Source of the DNA: Sulfitobacter sp. THAF37
Lineage (GTDB): Bacteria > Pseudomonadota > Alphaproteobacteria > Rhodobacterales > Rhodobacteraceae
Reading direction: 5' to 3'
NCBI RefSeq assembly: GCF_009363555.1
Contig: NZ_CP045372.1
Coordinates: forward strand, 2,553,501 to 2,617,500
DNA: 64,000 nucleotides
Below, piece after piece: positions 21,518 through 49,613 of the stretch. Both the position numbers and the translations under genes were made by a program. Each line of letters opens with the position of its first letter. The first letter of the stretch is position 1. Under the pieces are notes generated by a model, which was not told the origin of the DNA, made no database searches, and saw nothing but the letters and a program-made list of their open reading frames with translations.

Positions 21518-21552
21518 GTCGCGCCCGCCCCGGCCTTCGCGCCCATCCCTAG

Positions 21553-21610
21553 TTTCATTGTTCAAGAAATACACCACGGGGGTCCGGGGGTGTGAAACCC
21601 CCGGTCCGCC
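21553..21610. repeat. Hairpin repeat at a convergent gene end (copy 1)
   Basis: Begins TTTCATTGTTCAAGAAATAC and contains the stem CCGGGGGT (21584-21591) / ACCCCCGG (21597-21604). A related copy is at 48820-48870. Both lie just 3' of leftward genes, here between convergent uvrA and the CxPPGLAK protein gene. It may act as a terminator or be a dispersed palindromic repeat. Confidence 0.65.
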
Positions 21611-44128: not shown

Positions 44129-47100
44129 ATGAAGATTGAACGTCAGTTTACGACCGCAGGCAAAGATGCATACGCGGGGCTGGATTTCATCACCACGGTA
44201 TCCGAGATCCGCAATCCCGACGGCTCCACCGTGTTCAAGCTCGACAATGTCGAGGTGCCCTCCAGCTGGAGCCAGGTCGCAAGCGACGTCATCGCGCAGA
44301 AATATTTCCGCAAGGCCGGCGTTCCCTCTGAACTGAAAAAGGTCAAGGAAAAGGGCGTGCCCGAGTTCCTGTGGCGCTCGGTCCCCGCCGAAGGGGCCGA
44401 AATGGGCGGCGAGACCTCGTCCAAGCAGGTGTTTGACCGCCTTGCCGGGGCCTGGGCCTATTGGGGCTGGAAGGGTGGCTATTTCACCACCGAGGAAGAC
44501 GCCCGCGCCTATTTTGACGAGATGCGCCACATGCTGGCCAGCCAGCGCGCCGCGCCGAACTCGCCCCAGTGGTTCAACACCGGCCTGCACTGGGCCTATG
44601 GCATCGACGGTCCCGCGCAGGGCCACTACTATGTCGATTACAAGACCGGCAAACTGACCCGGTCCAAGTCTTCCTACGAACACCCGCAGCCGCACGCCTG
44701 CTTCATCCAGTCCGTTCAGGACGACCTGGTGGGCGATGGCGGCATCATGGACCTGTGGGTCCGCGAGGCGCGGCTTTTCAAATACGGCTCGGGAACGGGC
44801 ACCAACTTCTCCTCGCTGCGTGCGGCGGGTGAGAAACTGTCGGGCGGTGGCAAGTCGTCCGGCTTGATGGGCTTTCTCAAGATCGGCGACCGTGCAGCCG
44901 GCGCCATCAAGTCGGGCGGCACCACGCGCCGCGCGGCCAAGATGGTGATCGTCGATGCCGACCATCCCGACATCGAGGAATTCATCAACTGGAAGGTGCT
45001 CGAAGAGCAGAAGGTCGCGTCCATCGTCGCCGGCTCCAAGATGCACGAAGAGAAGCTGAACCTTCTGTTCAAGGCGATCAAGGAATGGGACGGGGCAGTG
45101 GCGGATGCCTATGACCCGGCCAAGAACGACGCGCTGAAACAGGCGATCCGCGAAGCCAAGAAGGTCGCGATCCCCGAGACCTACGTGAAGCGCGTGCTGG
45201 ACTATGCCAAGCAGGGCCACACCAGCATCGAATTCCCGACCTATGACACCGACTGGGACTCCGAGGCCTACAACTCCGTTTCCGGCCAGAACTCCAACAA
45301 CTCGATCCGCGTGACCAACGCCTTCCTGACCGCTGTCGAAAAGGACGCGGACTGGGAACTGACCGACCGCACGACCGGCAAGGTGGCCAAGACCATCCGC
45401 GCCCGCGACCTCTGGGCGCAGGTCGGCCATGCCGCCTGGGCCTGTGCCGATCCGGGCATCCAGTACCACGACACCGTCAACGACTGGCACACATGCCCCG
45501 AAGACGGCGCGATCCGCGGCTCGAACCCCTGCTCGGAATACATGTTCCTGGACGATACCGCCTGCAACCTGGCGTCGATGAACCTGCTCACCTTCCTTGA
45601 GGACGGCGTGTTCAACGTCGAGGACTACATGCACGCCGCGCGTCTTTGGACCGTGACGCTGGAAATCTCGGTGATGATGGCGCAGTTCCCGTCCAAGGAG
45701 ATCGCGCAGCGGTCCTATGACTTCCGCACCCTGGGTCTGGGCTATGCGAACATCGGCGGTCTGCTGATGAACATGGGCTATTCCTACGACAGCGACGAGG
45801 GCCGCAGCCTCTGCGGGGCGCTGACAGCGATCATGACCGGCGTGTCCTACGCCACCTCCGCGGAAATGGCGGGCGAGCTGGGGACCTTTCCCGGATACGA
45901 CAAGAACAGCAGCCACATGCTGCGCGTCATCCGCAACCACCGCAACGCGGCCCACGGCAACGACACCGGCTACGAACTGCTGTCGGTCAAGCCCGTCCCG
46001 CTCGACCACGCGAATTGCCCTCAGCCCGGCCTGATCGACGTGGCGATGTCCACCTGGGACGAGGCGTTGACCCTGGGCGAGCAGCACGGCTACCGCAACG
46101 CGCAGGTCTCGGTCATTGCGCCCACCGGCACCATCGGCCTGGTGATGGACTGCGACACCACCGGCATCGAGCCCGACTTTGCCCTGGTGAAGTTCAAGAA
46201 GCTGGCCGGCGGCGGCTACTTCAAGATCATCAACCAAAGCGTTCCGGCGGCACTGGAAAAGCTCGGTTACGGCTCCGCCCAGATCGAGGAAATCGTGTCC
46301 TACGCCGTGGGCCATGGCACCATCGGCAACGCACCGGGGATCAACCACACCTCGCTGGCGGGCCACGGTTTCGGCCCCAATGAGCTGGCCAAGGTGGACG
46401 CGGCGTTGGCCTCGGCCTTCGACATCCGCTTTGTCTTCAACCAGTGGACCCTGGGCGAGGCGTTCTGCAAGAATGTGCTGGGCATCCCGGCGGACAAGCT
46501 GAACGACCCGACCTTCGACCTGCTGAAGTCCCTTGGGTTCTCCCGCAAGGACATCGAGGCGGCCAACGACCACGTCTGCGGCACGATGACCCTGGAAGGC
46601 GCGCCGCACCTCAAGCCGGAGCATTACGGCATCTTCGACTGCGCCAACCCCTGCGGCAAGAAGGGCAAGCGGTTCCTCAGCGTGAACAGCCACATCTACA
46701 TGATGGCGGCGGCACAAAGCTTCATCTCGGGCGCGATTTCCAAGACGATCAACATGCCCAACGACGCCACCATCGAGGACTGCCAGCAGGCCTATGAACT
46801 GTCCTGGAGCCTCGGCATCAAGGCGAATGCGCTTTACCGCGACGGCTCCAAGCTCAGCCAGCCGCTGGCGGCGGCCCTGGTGGAGGACGACGACGAGGCG
46901 GCAGAGGTGCTGGAAAGCGGCTCCATGCAGGAAAAGGCGACCGTGCTGGCCGAAAAGATCGTCGAAAAGGTGATCGTCAAGGAAATCGTCAAGTCGCACC
47001 GCGAAAAGATGCCCCAGCGCCGCAAGGGCTATACCCAGAAGGCCAACGTGGGCGGGCACAAGGTCTACCTGCGCACCGGCGAATACGGCGACGGCAAGCT

Positions 47101-47779
47101 GGGCGAGATTTTCATCGACATGCACAAGGAAGGCGCGGGCTTCCGCGCGATGATGAACAACTTCGCCATCGCGGTCTCCGTCGGGCTTCAGTACGGCGTG
47201 CCACTGGAGGAATTCGTCGATGCCTTCACCTTCACCAAGTTCGAACCGGCGGGCATGGTCCAGGGCAACGACAGCATCAAGAACGCGACCTCGATTCTCG
47301 ACTATATCTTCCGCGAACTGGCGGTCAGCTACCTGGACCGGACCGATCTCGCGCATGTGAAGCCCGAAGGTGCCACATTCGACGATCTGGGTCGGGGCGA
47401 CGAGGAAGAAGGCGTGGCGAATGTCTCGGAGCTTTCTGAAACTGCCGCGACCAAGAGCCTCGAAGTGCTGCGCCAGATCAGCTCCACCGGCTATCTGCGC
47501 AACCGCCTGCCGCAGGAACTGGTGGTACTGCAGGGCGGCCAGCGCGAGATGGCAGCCGCCGTCGCCGCCGCCACGCCCCAGGTCGACGGCAGCGCCGCCG
47601 TCGCCATGGCCGCCAGCACCGCTGCCGCCAGCGCGCCGACCAGCCTCGATGCGCGCACCAAGGCCAAGATGCAGGGCTACGAGGGCGAGGCCTGCGGCGA
47701 ATGCGGGAACTACACGCTGGTCCGCAACGGGACCTGCATGAAGTGCAATACATGTGGTGGCACCAGTGGCTGCAGCTAA
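44129..47779 (+). CDS. nrdJ: Class II (adenosylcobalamin-dependent) ribonucleotide reductase
   Basis: A 1216-residue enzyme reducing ribonucleotides to deoxyribonucleotides with a B12-derived thiyl radical, independent of oxygen. The catalytic barrel has the active-site [10 protein letters not shown] (about 470), PTGTIG (about 668) and a late CGxKGKR segment; the C-terminal region has a long Ala-rich spacer and a zinc-ribbon-like end ([17 protein letters not shown]), normally used for shuttling electrons from thioredoxin. The long form is typical of alphaproteobacteria. Regulation by NrdR is suggested by upstream boxes. A B12-synthesis gene, cobK, lies 12 kb away but not in an operon. Confidence 0.97.
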
Positions 47780-47792
47780 GGGAAACGGAAAG

Positions 47793-48074
47793 ATGCCAGA
47801 AGAAAAACGTGAATTCGAAAACGCCAGGATCACCATGGGCGCCAGGACGACCGAGCCGATGACGGTCACGGTGACCGTCACAACGACACCGGAAAAGCGT
47901 TCCGGATCGGGCGAGGCGGTGCTGCCCCAGGACGTTTTCGACGAGATCGAAGCGGTCGAAGGGGCAGGGTCGGTCGAAGCACCGCAAGGCACGTTCTCGA
48001 TTATGGTGCGCAAGGCCTTCAAGGACACGCGCAGGGTCGAGTTCGTCACCTCCGGTCCGGTGCCCGACGCCTGA
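47793..48074 (+). CDS. Small acidic protein downstream of nrdJ
   Basis: A 93-residue protein of unknown function with no signal peptide or membrane helix. It is rich in Thr, Val and acidic residues (e.g. TVTVTVTTTPEKRSGSGEA). The ATG at 47793 follows GGAAACGGAAAG, 13 bp after the nrdJ stop, so it is in the nrdJ transcript. After it, the 128-bp hairpin array begins 121 bp downstream. Confidence 0.68.
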   Translation: MPEEKREFENARITMGARTTEPMTVTVTVTTTPEKRSGSGEAVLPQDVFDEIEAVEGAGSVEAPQGTFSIMVRKAFKDTRRVEFVTSGPVPDA

Positions 48075-48195
48075 ACCCGGCCTTCCCGACAGCGGCCATG
48101 CGGCGGCTGTCGGCGCAGACACGGAGCGCGTGCGCGTGCTCTGGACGACGTTCAGGCCGCAGGCAAACAAACATCGAGCGGTTAACAAATTGAGC

Positions 48196-48775
48196 CTGAA
48201 CGGCGAAACTAAAGGGGCACTTCGGTGCTCCTTTTTTTCTGTTCAGAAGGATGCGGGCTGACTCCGGCCTTTTCAAAGAAAAGGCCTCTGTCAGGGGAGA
48301 TCGCGTTTGAAGGGCAAACGCAATCGGAACGGCGAAACTAGAGGAGAGCTTCGGCTCTCCTTTTTTCTGTTCAGAAGGATGCGGGCTGACTCCGGCCTTT
48401 TGAAGGAAAAGGCCTCTGTCAGGGGAGATCGCGTTTGAAGGGCAAACGCAATCGGAACGGCGAAACTAAAGGGGCACTTCGGTGCTCCTTTTTTCTGTTC
48501 AGAAGGATGCGGGCTGACTCCGGCCTTTTGAAGGAAAAGGCCTCTGTCAGGGGAGATTGCGTTTTCAAGGCAAACGCAATCTGAACGGCGAAACTAAAGG
48601 GGCACTTCGGCTCTCCTTTTTTCTGTTCAGAAGGATGCGGGCTGACTCCGGCCTTTTGAAGGAAAAGGCCTCTGTCAGGGGAGATTGCGTTTTCAAGGCA
48701 AACGCAATCGGAACGGCGAAACTAGAGGAGAGCTTCGGCTCTCCATTTTTCTGTTCAGGCGGCTGCGGGCTGCCT
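48196..48775 (+). repeat. Tandem array of a 128-bp three-hairpin unit (4 full units plus an end hairpin)
   Basis: Five copies of a terminator-like hairpin are spaced exactly 128 bp apart (GTTCAG at 48241, 48369, 48497, 48625, 48753); the first unit has one extra T. Each unit has (1) an outer stem CTGAAC or GGAAC with GTTCAG, around GGGGCAC-TTCG-GTGCTCC or GGAGAGC-TTCG-GCTCTCC, then T5-T7; (2) CTGAC/GTCAG around GGCCTTTT/AAAAGGCC (48258-48294 in the first); (3) GCGTTTG/CAAACGC between GAT and ATC (48299-48325). No frame is kept between units because 128 is not a multiple of three. It could be tandem small RNAs (hairpins 2 and 3 ending at the next terminator), a terminator cluster, or a REP-like array; none is proven. 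Confidence 0.85.
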
Positions 48776-48819
48776 TTGTCCAACGCCTCACCGACATCCC
48801 GACATGCGCGCGCCCCCGG

Positions 48820-48870
48820 CTTCATTGTTCCGAAAATAACACCGGGGGTCCGGGGGCTGGCCCCCGGTCC
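48820..48870. repeat. Hairpin repeat at a convergent gene end (copy 2)
   Basis: TTCATTGTTCCGAAAATAAC followed by stem CCGGGGGC (48850-48857) / GCCCCCGG (48860-48867). Related to 21553-21610 and likewise immediately beyond the stop of a leftward gene, here the ECF sigma gene (stop at 48875). Confidence 0.65.
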
Positions 48871-48874
48871 GCGC

Positions 48875-49372
48875 TCACAGCAACTCCGTCACCGACCCCT
48901 CAAGCGCCATCTGCTGCCGCAGGCTCGCCCGGGCGCGCGCCAGCCGCGACATGACCGTACCCTGCGGCACCCGCAGCTTTGCCGCCAACACCTGAGGGCT
49001 TGTGTCGCCCGCCACGATCATTTCCATGCAGGCGCGCTGGTCGCGGGGCAGCCGCGCGATGGCGGCGCGCAGCTCCGCGCAGGCCAGCCGGGCCGGGCCT
49101 AGCGGCGCCGTCACCACCATGTCTTCGGTCAGTTCCTCGGTCCGGCGCGCGCCGCGCCAGCGGTACCGTGCGAGGTTGTGCAGCATGATCATCGCATAGC
49201 GGTCCGGCGCGTCGATCCGGGTGTCCTCCGCCAGCAGTTGCCACATCTTCAGCGCCACCTCCTGGGCCAGGTCCTCGGCCTCCTCGGCCGAGCGGGTCAG
49301 CCTGCGGGCACGGGCACGCAGGCGGGGCAACAGGGGGGAAAGCGCGCAGGGCGTCGCGGCTGTTTCTGTCAT
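48875..49372 (-). CDS. ECF-type RNA polymerase sigma factor
   Basis: A 165-residue sigma-70 family ECF protein. Region 2 is about 14-72 (SAEEAEDLAQEVALKMWQLL, YAMIMLHNLARYRWR) and region 4 about 96-158 (LPRDQRACMEMIVAGDTSPQVLAAKLRVPQGTVMSRLARARASL), the latter with the helix-turn-helix that binds the -35. The ATG at 49372 overlaps by ATGA the stop of a short open frame (see findings), so it may be translated with an upstream small peptide. No anti-sigma gene is visible. It diverges from an EF-hand protein gene. Confidence 0.9.
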   Translation of the reverse strand: MTETAATPCALSPLLPRLRARARRLTRSAEEAEDLAQEVALKMWQLLAEDTRIDAPDRYAMIMLHNLARYRWRGARRTEELTEDMVVTAPLGPARLACAELRAAIARLPRDQRACMEMIVAGDTSPQVLAAKLRVPQGTVMSRLARARASLRQQMALEGSVTELL

Positions 49373-49613
49373 CGGAATGCCTCATCTCGTTTTTTCCGCA
49401 GCATGCCCGCGCCCGCGGCAACAACCAATGCGGGTGTTTCCGCCGAGCCGCCGAACCACGGCTTTTTGGGCGGCGGCTTGCCCATGCGGCGGCGCCCGAT
49501 CGGCAGGGCTTCGCGCGTGGACGGACCGGCATGAACGCAAACCGCCCCTGCTGCATCTATCCCATCGAAGGCAGCAAGACCTTCGAACACAAACCGAAAA
49601 AAGGAAGTATCCC

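Follow-up and report, generated by a model that had tools for sequence, protein, structure and literature searches.

The chromosome of Sulfitobacter sp. THAF37 (Rhodobacteraceae) carries, between the ribonucleotide reductase gene nrdJ and a gene for an ECF-type sigma factor, a run of closely similar hairpins that recurs every 128 bp, and this arrangement raises the question of whether we are looking at tandem small-RNA (sRNA) genes, at a cluster of transcription terminators, or at a repeat of the DNA itself. A first-pass annotation had suggested that the locus may be an undescribed sRNA array or a terminator cluster. In what follows, the window is the whole stretch of 64,000 nucleotides that was analysed (contig NZ_CP045372.1, positions 2,553,501 to 2,617,500), to which all coordinates refer, and handles such as G108 and L121 are our own for genomes and loci.

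The nrdJ locus and its tandem array

The locus is made up of the following features.

44129–47779, + strand: nrdJ, vitamin B12-dependent (class II) ribonucleotide reductase, 1216 aa (NCBIfam, Pfam)
47754–48074, + strand: open reading frame of 106 aa that separates nrdJ from the leader RNA and overlaps nrdJ at its first GTG
48086–48113, + strand: hairpin without a U-tail, directly 5′ of leader RNA A
48118–48240, + strand: leader RNA A (A), conserved RNA of the nrdJ 3′ untranslated region (UTR), about 120 nt (alignment, consensus fold, matches of model R1, nrdJ linkage, G-U test)
48198–48256, + strand: X0, the 3′ portion of A that recurs in the array, with the core GAACGGCGAAACTA, the terminator and a tail of about 20 nt
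48257–48326, + strand: E1, 70-bp double-hairpin element (H2 48258–48294, H3 48299–48325)
48245–48372, + strand: array unit 1, the X0 tail, E1 and most of X1; terminator stem 48340–48363
48373–48500, + strand: array unit 2; H2 48386–48422, H3 48427–48453, terminator stem 48468–48491
48501–48628, + strand: array unit 3; H2 48514–48550, H3 48555–48581, chimeric weak terminator 48594–48625
48629–48756, + strand: array unit 4; H2 48642–48678, H3 48683–48709, terminator stem 48727–48744, T-run broken by an A
48757–48775, + strand: what may be the decayed beginning of a fifth E (CTGCGGGCTG; judged by eye, weak)
48875–49372, − strand: ECF-type sigma factor gene, convergent with the array (Pfam PF04542, PF08281)

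NCBIfam and Pfam confirm both of the neighbours between which the array had been placed, NrdJ reaching 2217 bits against NF005736 (cut-off 1737) and containing the Pfam domains PF02867, PF08471 and PF12637. At E 0.001 neither Pfam nor NCBIfam assigns the 106-aa reading frame to a family, and A lies 331 bp from nrdJ in this genome. Judged by eye, hairpins occupy the same place 5′ of A in several relatives, and sigma-gene-like sequence is found 3′ of the array in some relatives and is absent in others. Just 3′ of the array, positions 48807–48870 form a GC-rich palindrome with CCGGGGGTCCGGGGGC that resembles nine other places of the same genome (E ≤ 0.001), one of them in the window at about 21529–21609; this is a REP-like repeat, unrelated to the array.

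TRF reports one array at 48198–48772 (period 128, 4.5 copies, 93% matches, score 952), the runner-up among its ten rows for the window scoring 67, and the tandem array recorded at first sight is therefore real, with four full units (48245–48756) behind a first terminator. These units are pairwise identical at 117–122 of 128 positions, their length is not divisible by 3, the GTTCAG motif lies at exactly the positions that had been read (48241, 48369, 48497, 48625 and 48753; a sixth copy, at 48150, is part of A), and the two further stems claimed for each unit are present as H2 (48258–48294, +128n) and H3 (48299–48325, +128n). Unit 48245–48372, folded on either strand, did better than all 200 shuffles on both strands. 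A terminator scan of 47700–49500 returned six sites, five of which fall on the + strand where they were expected, compared with 2.6 (sd 1.7) in shuffled sequence; a promoter scan of the same interval, which covers the sigma-70-like type only, found none on either strand.

The description of five recurring terminators at exact 128-bp spacing nevertheless has to be amended: the spacing holds for GTTCAG, but the first terminator stands outside the units and is the 3′ end of A, and the five sites, although found, are unequal, one being chimeric with a weak stem and one having an interrupted T-run. Each unit is composed of the 70-bp double-hairpin element E and of X, a 58-nt copy of the 3′ end of A. 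X0 itself measures 59 nt, and the core repeat GAACGGCGAAACTA is spaced by 129 between its first and second copies, because of one extra T, and by 128 thereafter. The window array holds two terminator alleles, and the terminator of unit 3 takes its 5′ arm from one of them and its 3′ arm from the other; its fold of −6.1 kcal/mol is matched by 37 of 200 shuffles, the terminator scan nonetheless listing a 5-pair stem at 48599–48614. The last terminator, that of unit 4, has kept its stem intact, with an A interrupting the T-run. At the Tateyamaria locus L096 the terminators of A and of the unit are identical through the T-run, as is expected of exchange between copies. This terminator comparison covered 8 of 12 loci, L095, L098, L011 and L105 having been viewed by eye only; also by eye, the arrays of L095, L104 and L119 end in a partial E that is clearer than that of the window.

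A conserved 3′-UTR element of nrdJ

Leader RNA A consists of hairpin 1 (48122–48142), then P2 (48149–48157 with 48194–48202), which encloses an inner CCGC/GCGG stem and an A-rich loop, then the conserved linker GGCGAAACU, and finally the terminator. A DNA search with 48115–48245 gave matches in 69 of 149 family genomes, and the alignment of A was assembled from 27 of the 30 loci of this search and 11 of the 13 loci of another, giving 38 copies; the omissions are three loci missed by the extraction pattern, one duplicate place and one divergent locus. RNAalifold finds compensatory changes in 16 of the 30 pairs of this alignment. Scanned with fast filters, the covariance model R1 detects A in 133 of 198 family genomes, a count that is in part a matter of construction, since 27 of the 38 rows from which R1 was built come from the family scan; there is one match per genome except in G197, which has a second, weak one. 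NrdJ itself (E 1e-100 or better) is encoded in 192 of the same 198 genomes, so that at least 59 nrdJ-bearing genomes of the family are without an R1 match. In a class-wide sample, likewise scanned with fast filters, seven of 190 genomes match: three are family members (at least 117.8 bits), and four, counted over all 190, lie outside the family and match weakly (28.5–34.5 bits).

The association with nrdJ is close. R1 produced 134 rows, 117 with a NrdJ row among the matches listed and 17 with none, and 115 of the 117 testable matches lie downstream of nrdJ on its strand, the other two lying elsewhere. Among these listed matches, the distance from nrdJ to A in the 115 ranges from −5 to 686 bp with a median of 97, and it is no more than 14 bp in 27, which leaves little space for a promoter outside the gene; as the model starts about 12–16 nt 5′ of hairpin 1, A begins shortly after the stop codon in those genomes. 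By its position behind nrdJ on the same strand, A is a conserved 3′-UTR element of this gene.

Which strand is under selection can be read from the mismatches that a helix tolerates: one selected as RNA accepts G-U and not A-C, and on the complementary strand the reverse holds. Hairpin 1 and P2/P3 of A together contain 82 G-U cells and no A-C cell, the 82 being spread over 15 pairs with 35 from a single column, and its terminator contains 18 G-U against 3 A-C. This pattern argues that A works as RNA on the strand of nrdJ. The nrdJ transcript most likely has A as its 3′ end, and A probably persists as a 3′-UTR-derived RNA, the features of which it displays: a place in the 3′ UTR of one gene, on the same strand, with conservation and compensatory change of the sense-strand kind.

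The structured RNA is apparently undescribed. Rfam 15 recognizes only a tRNA at gathering score in the whole window, and a permissive scan of 48050–48900 returns nine matches at E values up to 10, all of them well short of the gathering score of their family, the best being TarB with 22.5 bits where 80 are called for; at the A-bearing loci L142, L176, L179, L181 and L182, A has no match at Rfam gathering score either. In the open literature on nrdJ and on sRNAs of Rhodobacteraceae and Sulfitobacter, as represented by titles and the beginnings of abstracts and exclusive of subscription journals and supplements, no entry describes A or the array, and an RNA-seq table somewhere may list A unnamed. 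StsR was considered as an identity for A. With SorX, UdsB-D, UdsH and other 3′-UTR sRNAs of Rhodobacter sphaeroides, A shares its 3′-UTR place, where it begins near the stop codon in many genomes, and its intrinsic terminator; these RNAs differ from A by their host gene. According to PMC8625941, several R. sphaeroides RNAs persist as 3′-UTR-derived RNAs, and nrdJ has no occurrence in its main text.

The array unit and its double-hairpin element

The units are likewise conserved in their pairing. In the alignment of 16 unit rows, 18 of 30 pairs are compensated in at least one row and the core GGCGAAAC is kept in every row; H2 retains CUGAC/GUCAG, the internal loop UCC/UCU and GGAG, and its inner seven pairs vary with compensation. 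For E alone (15 rows), 89.6% of cells are paired and covariation is 0.432, compared with 0.155 in shuffled alignments, none of 500 shuffles being as high and slid structures attaining at most 0.174, in a test that favours the structure by drawing it from the same 15 rows. A UCC:GGA pseudoknot within E was also considered, both sides of which are invariant or nearly so. The strand test, which had been so one-sided for A, gives 1 G-U against 6 A-C cells in unit H2 and 4 against 2 in H3, few changes among related sequences, and in a wider alignment of E it gives 2 against 8 for H2 and 1 against 7 for H3. H2 and H3 are thus devoid of a sense-strand sign and would, if anything, lean to the opposite strand. 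The unit terminators, at 14 G-U against 7 A-C, have a mild sense-strand bias, which suggests that some are probably selected as RNA.

The distribution of the units is narrow. A second covariance model, R2, was built from most of the unit-bearing genomes, G442 and G467 not among them, and at 86 bits or more it recognizes a total of 14 full units in the genus, four in the window, spread at 1–4 copies each over 9 of the 62 genomes and leaving 53 without one in a scan with fast filters. In the family sample, full units occur in three of 394 genomes, namely our own, G487, whose sequence agrees with the Tateyamaria locus L105, and G467, so that the full unit is distributed over Sulfitobacter, Tateyamaria and one further genus. 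Weaker R2 matches (at most 44.3 bits in the genus and 46.8 bits in the family sample) coincide in many cases with A, and matches of any strength are found in 28 of 62 genus genomes and 103 of 394 family-sample genomes. A search over named loci produced 12 loci, with matches in Nitriliruptoraceae, Planctomycetia, Chloroflexi, Croceicoccus, Actinobacteria and Gemmataceae taken as chance; six of the named loci (four from Sulfitobacter, two from Tateyamaria) show nrdJ, then A, then one or two units. At L121 (G436), A is followed by a decayed E without a following X, possibly an intermediate or a decay product. At L176, L179, L181, L182 and L249, an H2-type hairpin (GACTCCGCAG..CGCTCTGTC or close to it) sits between nrdJ and A and not 3′ of A.

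Relatives of E occur at other genes, without the core. R2, untrained on them, matched two ssrA loci, in G108 (46.8 bits) and G198 (34.9 bits), where Rfam alpha_tmRNA scores 293.8 and 297.2 bits, respectively. In G108, E lies behind ssrA, and behind E the ssrA end recurs without mismatch over 49 bp; the corresponding copy in G198 measures 25 bp with two mismatches, and in G467 a 22-bp end of a coding sequence is repeated behind H2. The infC gene of G108 (L239, G108:C1:1271600-1272300; Pfam IF3_C 85.1 bits) has its 3′ end present three times around two double-hairpin elements, with a period of 151 bp and a repeated block of 91 bp. This element is diverged, reaching only 21.3 bits (E 9e-4) with a third model, R3, a score that chance alone could produce when 394 genomes are scanned. 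R3 matches 27 of these 394 genomes at E 0.01 or better, and its strong matches (at least 60 bits) fall at the nrdJ arrays and at the two ssrA loci, nearly all of which were used to build it. Flank duplication is clear in 4 of 17 distinct H2 places, the four just described, and absent or marginal in the other 13, the test having been confined to places with a clear H2, with 20 shuffles each and nine less convincing R3 places set aside. As a control, 400 kb of G108 without these loci contain no direct repeat of at least 20 bp with a gap of at least 20 within 400 bp, with a script that does find the window array, and a loose H2 pattern applied to 30 ssrA loci from other genomes matched eight, none of them recognizable by eye as the hairpin. 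The tmRNA 3′ end of L232 (G203, ssrA) is tandemly duplicated without E, and at L221 the duplicate of the ssrA end is matched only loosely. From L232 and the unduplicated H2 places it follows that gene ends are duplicated without E and that E occurs without duplication; the cases in which both come together are striking but few.

An exact pattern for H2 variants occurs in seven of 198 family genomes with one match each, and its reversed control gives nine matches; the pattern is at chance level and proves no dispersal. Four of the seven matches (G209, G238, G064 and G246) fold as an H2 hairpin and the other three do not. Judged by eye, relatives of E seem to be oriented either way with respect to their neighbours. 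L174, L241 and L184, which by eye appear to be the same intergenic site in three genera, have H2+H3-like hairpins, the third more diverged, and E may possibly have been inherited vertically there over some distance. At L151:2431-2512, near ssrA, lies a chrB-a RNA (Rfam RF03078, 65.7 bits).

Comparison with known systems and competing interpretations

Two known kinds of element invite comparison with the array. The sRNAs of CcsR and of the CIN1 locus have a CUCCUCCC-type loop motif and are cut by RNase E from one precursor. The absence of this motif, recorded in the first-pass annotation, is upheld: CCTCCTCCC, CTCCTCCC and CCTCC do not occur on the + strand of 48111–48790, nor does GGAGG occur in that interval. 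In R. sphaeroides the 3′ UTR of ccaF1 carries CcsR1-4, four sRNAs homologous to one another, and the array is like them in that homologous, structured units stand in tandem within the 3′ UTR of an alphaproteobacterial protein gene, with a 3′ terminator (PMC10253847, PMC8625941). According to PMC10253847, in which a CUCCUCCC-type motif has no occurrence, theirs is an association with a short DUF1127 gene, whereas here NrdJ and a family-less reading frame lie upstream; the present array further differs by a terminator copy in each unit and by hairpins without sense-strand bias. With neither loop motif nor upstream DUF1127 gene, membership of the units in CcsR is rejected.

REP/BIME and RIME elements are short, paired intergenic hairpins at unrelated sites. 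E resembles them in all of these respects, its homologous palindromes being strong at nrdJ and ssrA and weaker by model score at infC and other intergenic sites. It differs in its very low copy number, in being a pair of hairpins whose internal loop UCC/UCU is conserved, and in that some copies stand between copies of the flanking gene end. Dispersal of the unit to hundreds of unrelated intergenic sites, which had been named as an outcome that would refute the sRNA reading, is not what the genome shows: its five matches to the unit all fall inside the array, a single site, and the hairpin pair recurs at a few unrelated loci in other genera.

Taken together, these observations incline us, with some reserve, to the view that a nrdJ-A transcript forms the RNA of this locus and that the E-X array is an expanding DNA repeat, providing back-up terminators at most and not separate sRNA genes. 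The nrdJ transcript, assuming co-transcription, would end at the intrinsic terminator of A; in this lineage E would at some point have come to lie behind that terminator, after which E together with X, the last 58 nt of A, would have been copied in tandem, and unequal recombination would alter the copy number (1–4) and mix the copies. An RNA polymerase leaving nrdJ-A would meet up to five successive terminators, the uneven quality of which is why we credit the array with a back-up function at most, and read-through would yield longer A-E-X RNAs. Conservation of the core GGCGAAAC in 16 of 16 units is unexpected under neutral decay and counts against seeing the array as an expanding repeat, as does the mild G-U bias of the unit terminators.

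That conserved core is among the observations that would suit tandem homologous sRNAs processed from one precursor (H2, H3, core and terminator) and raising the dose of one regulator in the manner of CcsR1-4, as would the strong conserved folding with 18 of 30 pairs compensated, the RNA-like behaviour of A itself and the analogous 3′-UTR series behind ccaF1 (PMC10253847). We nevertheless regard such sRNAs as improbable, because H2 shows 1 G-U against 6 A-C where A shows 82 against none, one terminator stem in the window is broken, the relatives of E at unrelated genes such as ssrA and infC are without the core, 47700–49500 has no sigma-70-like promoter, and full units are present in just 9 of 62 genus genomes. 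Of the original proposals, the undescribed sRNA array accordingly finds no support; an undescribed RNA does seem to be present, as the leader upstream of the array and not as its units; and the name of terminator cluster is correct but incomplete, since it misses both A and E. A rather better, if still doubtful, case can be made for an array selected as back-up termination of nrdJ that shields the convergent ECF sigma gene from read-through: the T-runs face that gene, five terminator-like sites lie on the + strand, and the unit terminators carry their mild G-U bias, but one stem is broken and one T-run interrupted, 53 of 62 genus genomes have no full unit (fast filters), and the downstream gene varies among relatives by eye.

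Two further readings concern E itself and seem to us very unlikely, the first of them the more so. If E were transcribed and acted from the opposite strand, where its internal loop is purine-rich (AGA/GGA), then A-C on the + strand would be G-U on the − strand and the 6 against 1 of H2 would be accounted for; the numbers are small, however, H3 disagrees, neither strand has a sigma-70-like site, and the relatives of E seem, by eye, to stand in both orientations to their neighbours. Alternatively, X-E-X could be the scars of a site-specific recombinase that uses gene 3′ ends, with the flank copies as attachment repeats. The 3′ ends of ssrA are classical integration sites, the ssrA end is duplicated without E in L232, and the copies leave the upstream gene whole, but the duplications vary in length from 22 to 91 bp, little but the 65–70 bp or so of E separates the copies, and E is homologous across different genes, unlike scars. 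There is, in addition to the expanding-repeat reading that we prefer, an unlikely extension of it, in which E would be mobile: the double hairpin would settle behind the 3′ end of a gene and bring along a 20–90-bp copy of the gene end that precedes it. Were this true, the host gene would always keep its own end, each round would add one E-X unit, and a single undescribed generator of tandem 3′-end copies, at work alongside the new family-wide nrdJ 3′-UTR RNA, would account for the nrdJ array and for the ssrA and infC loci.

Whatever the origin of E, the array shows a terminator that has been multiplied along with a palindromic element, and the lesson for annotation is that conserved tandem hairpins need a strand test before they are read as sRNA genes. 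For the family, which is large and mainly marine, the significance lies with A, which is tied to the B12-dependent ribonucleotide reductase and is thereby a candidate through which DNA-precursor supply could be coupled to other functions at the RNA level.
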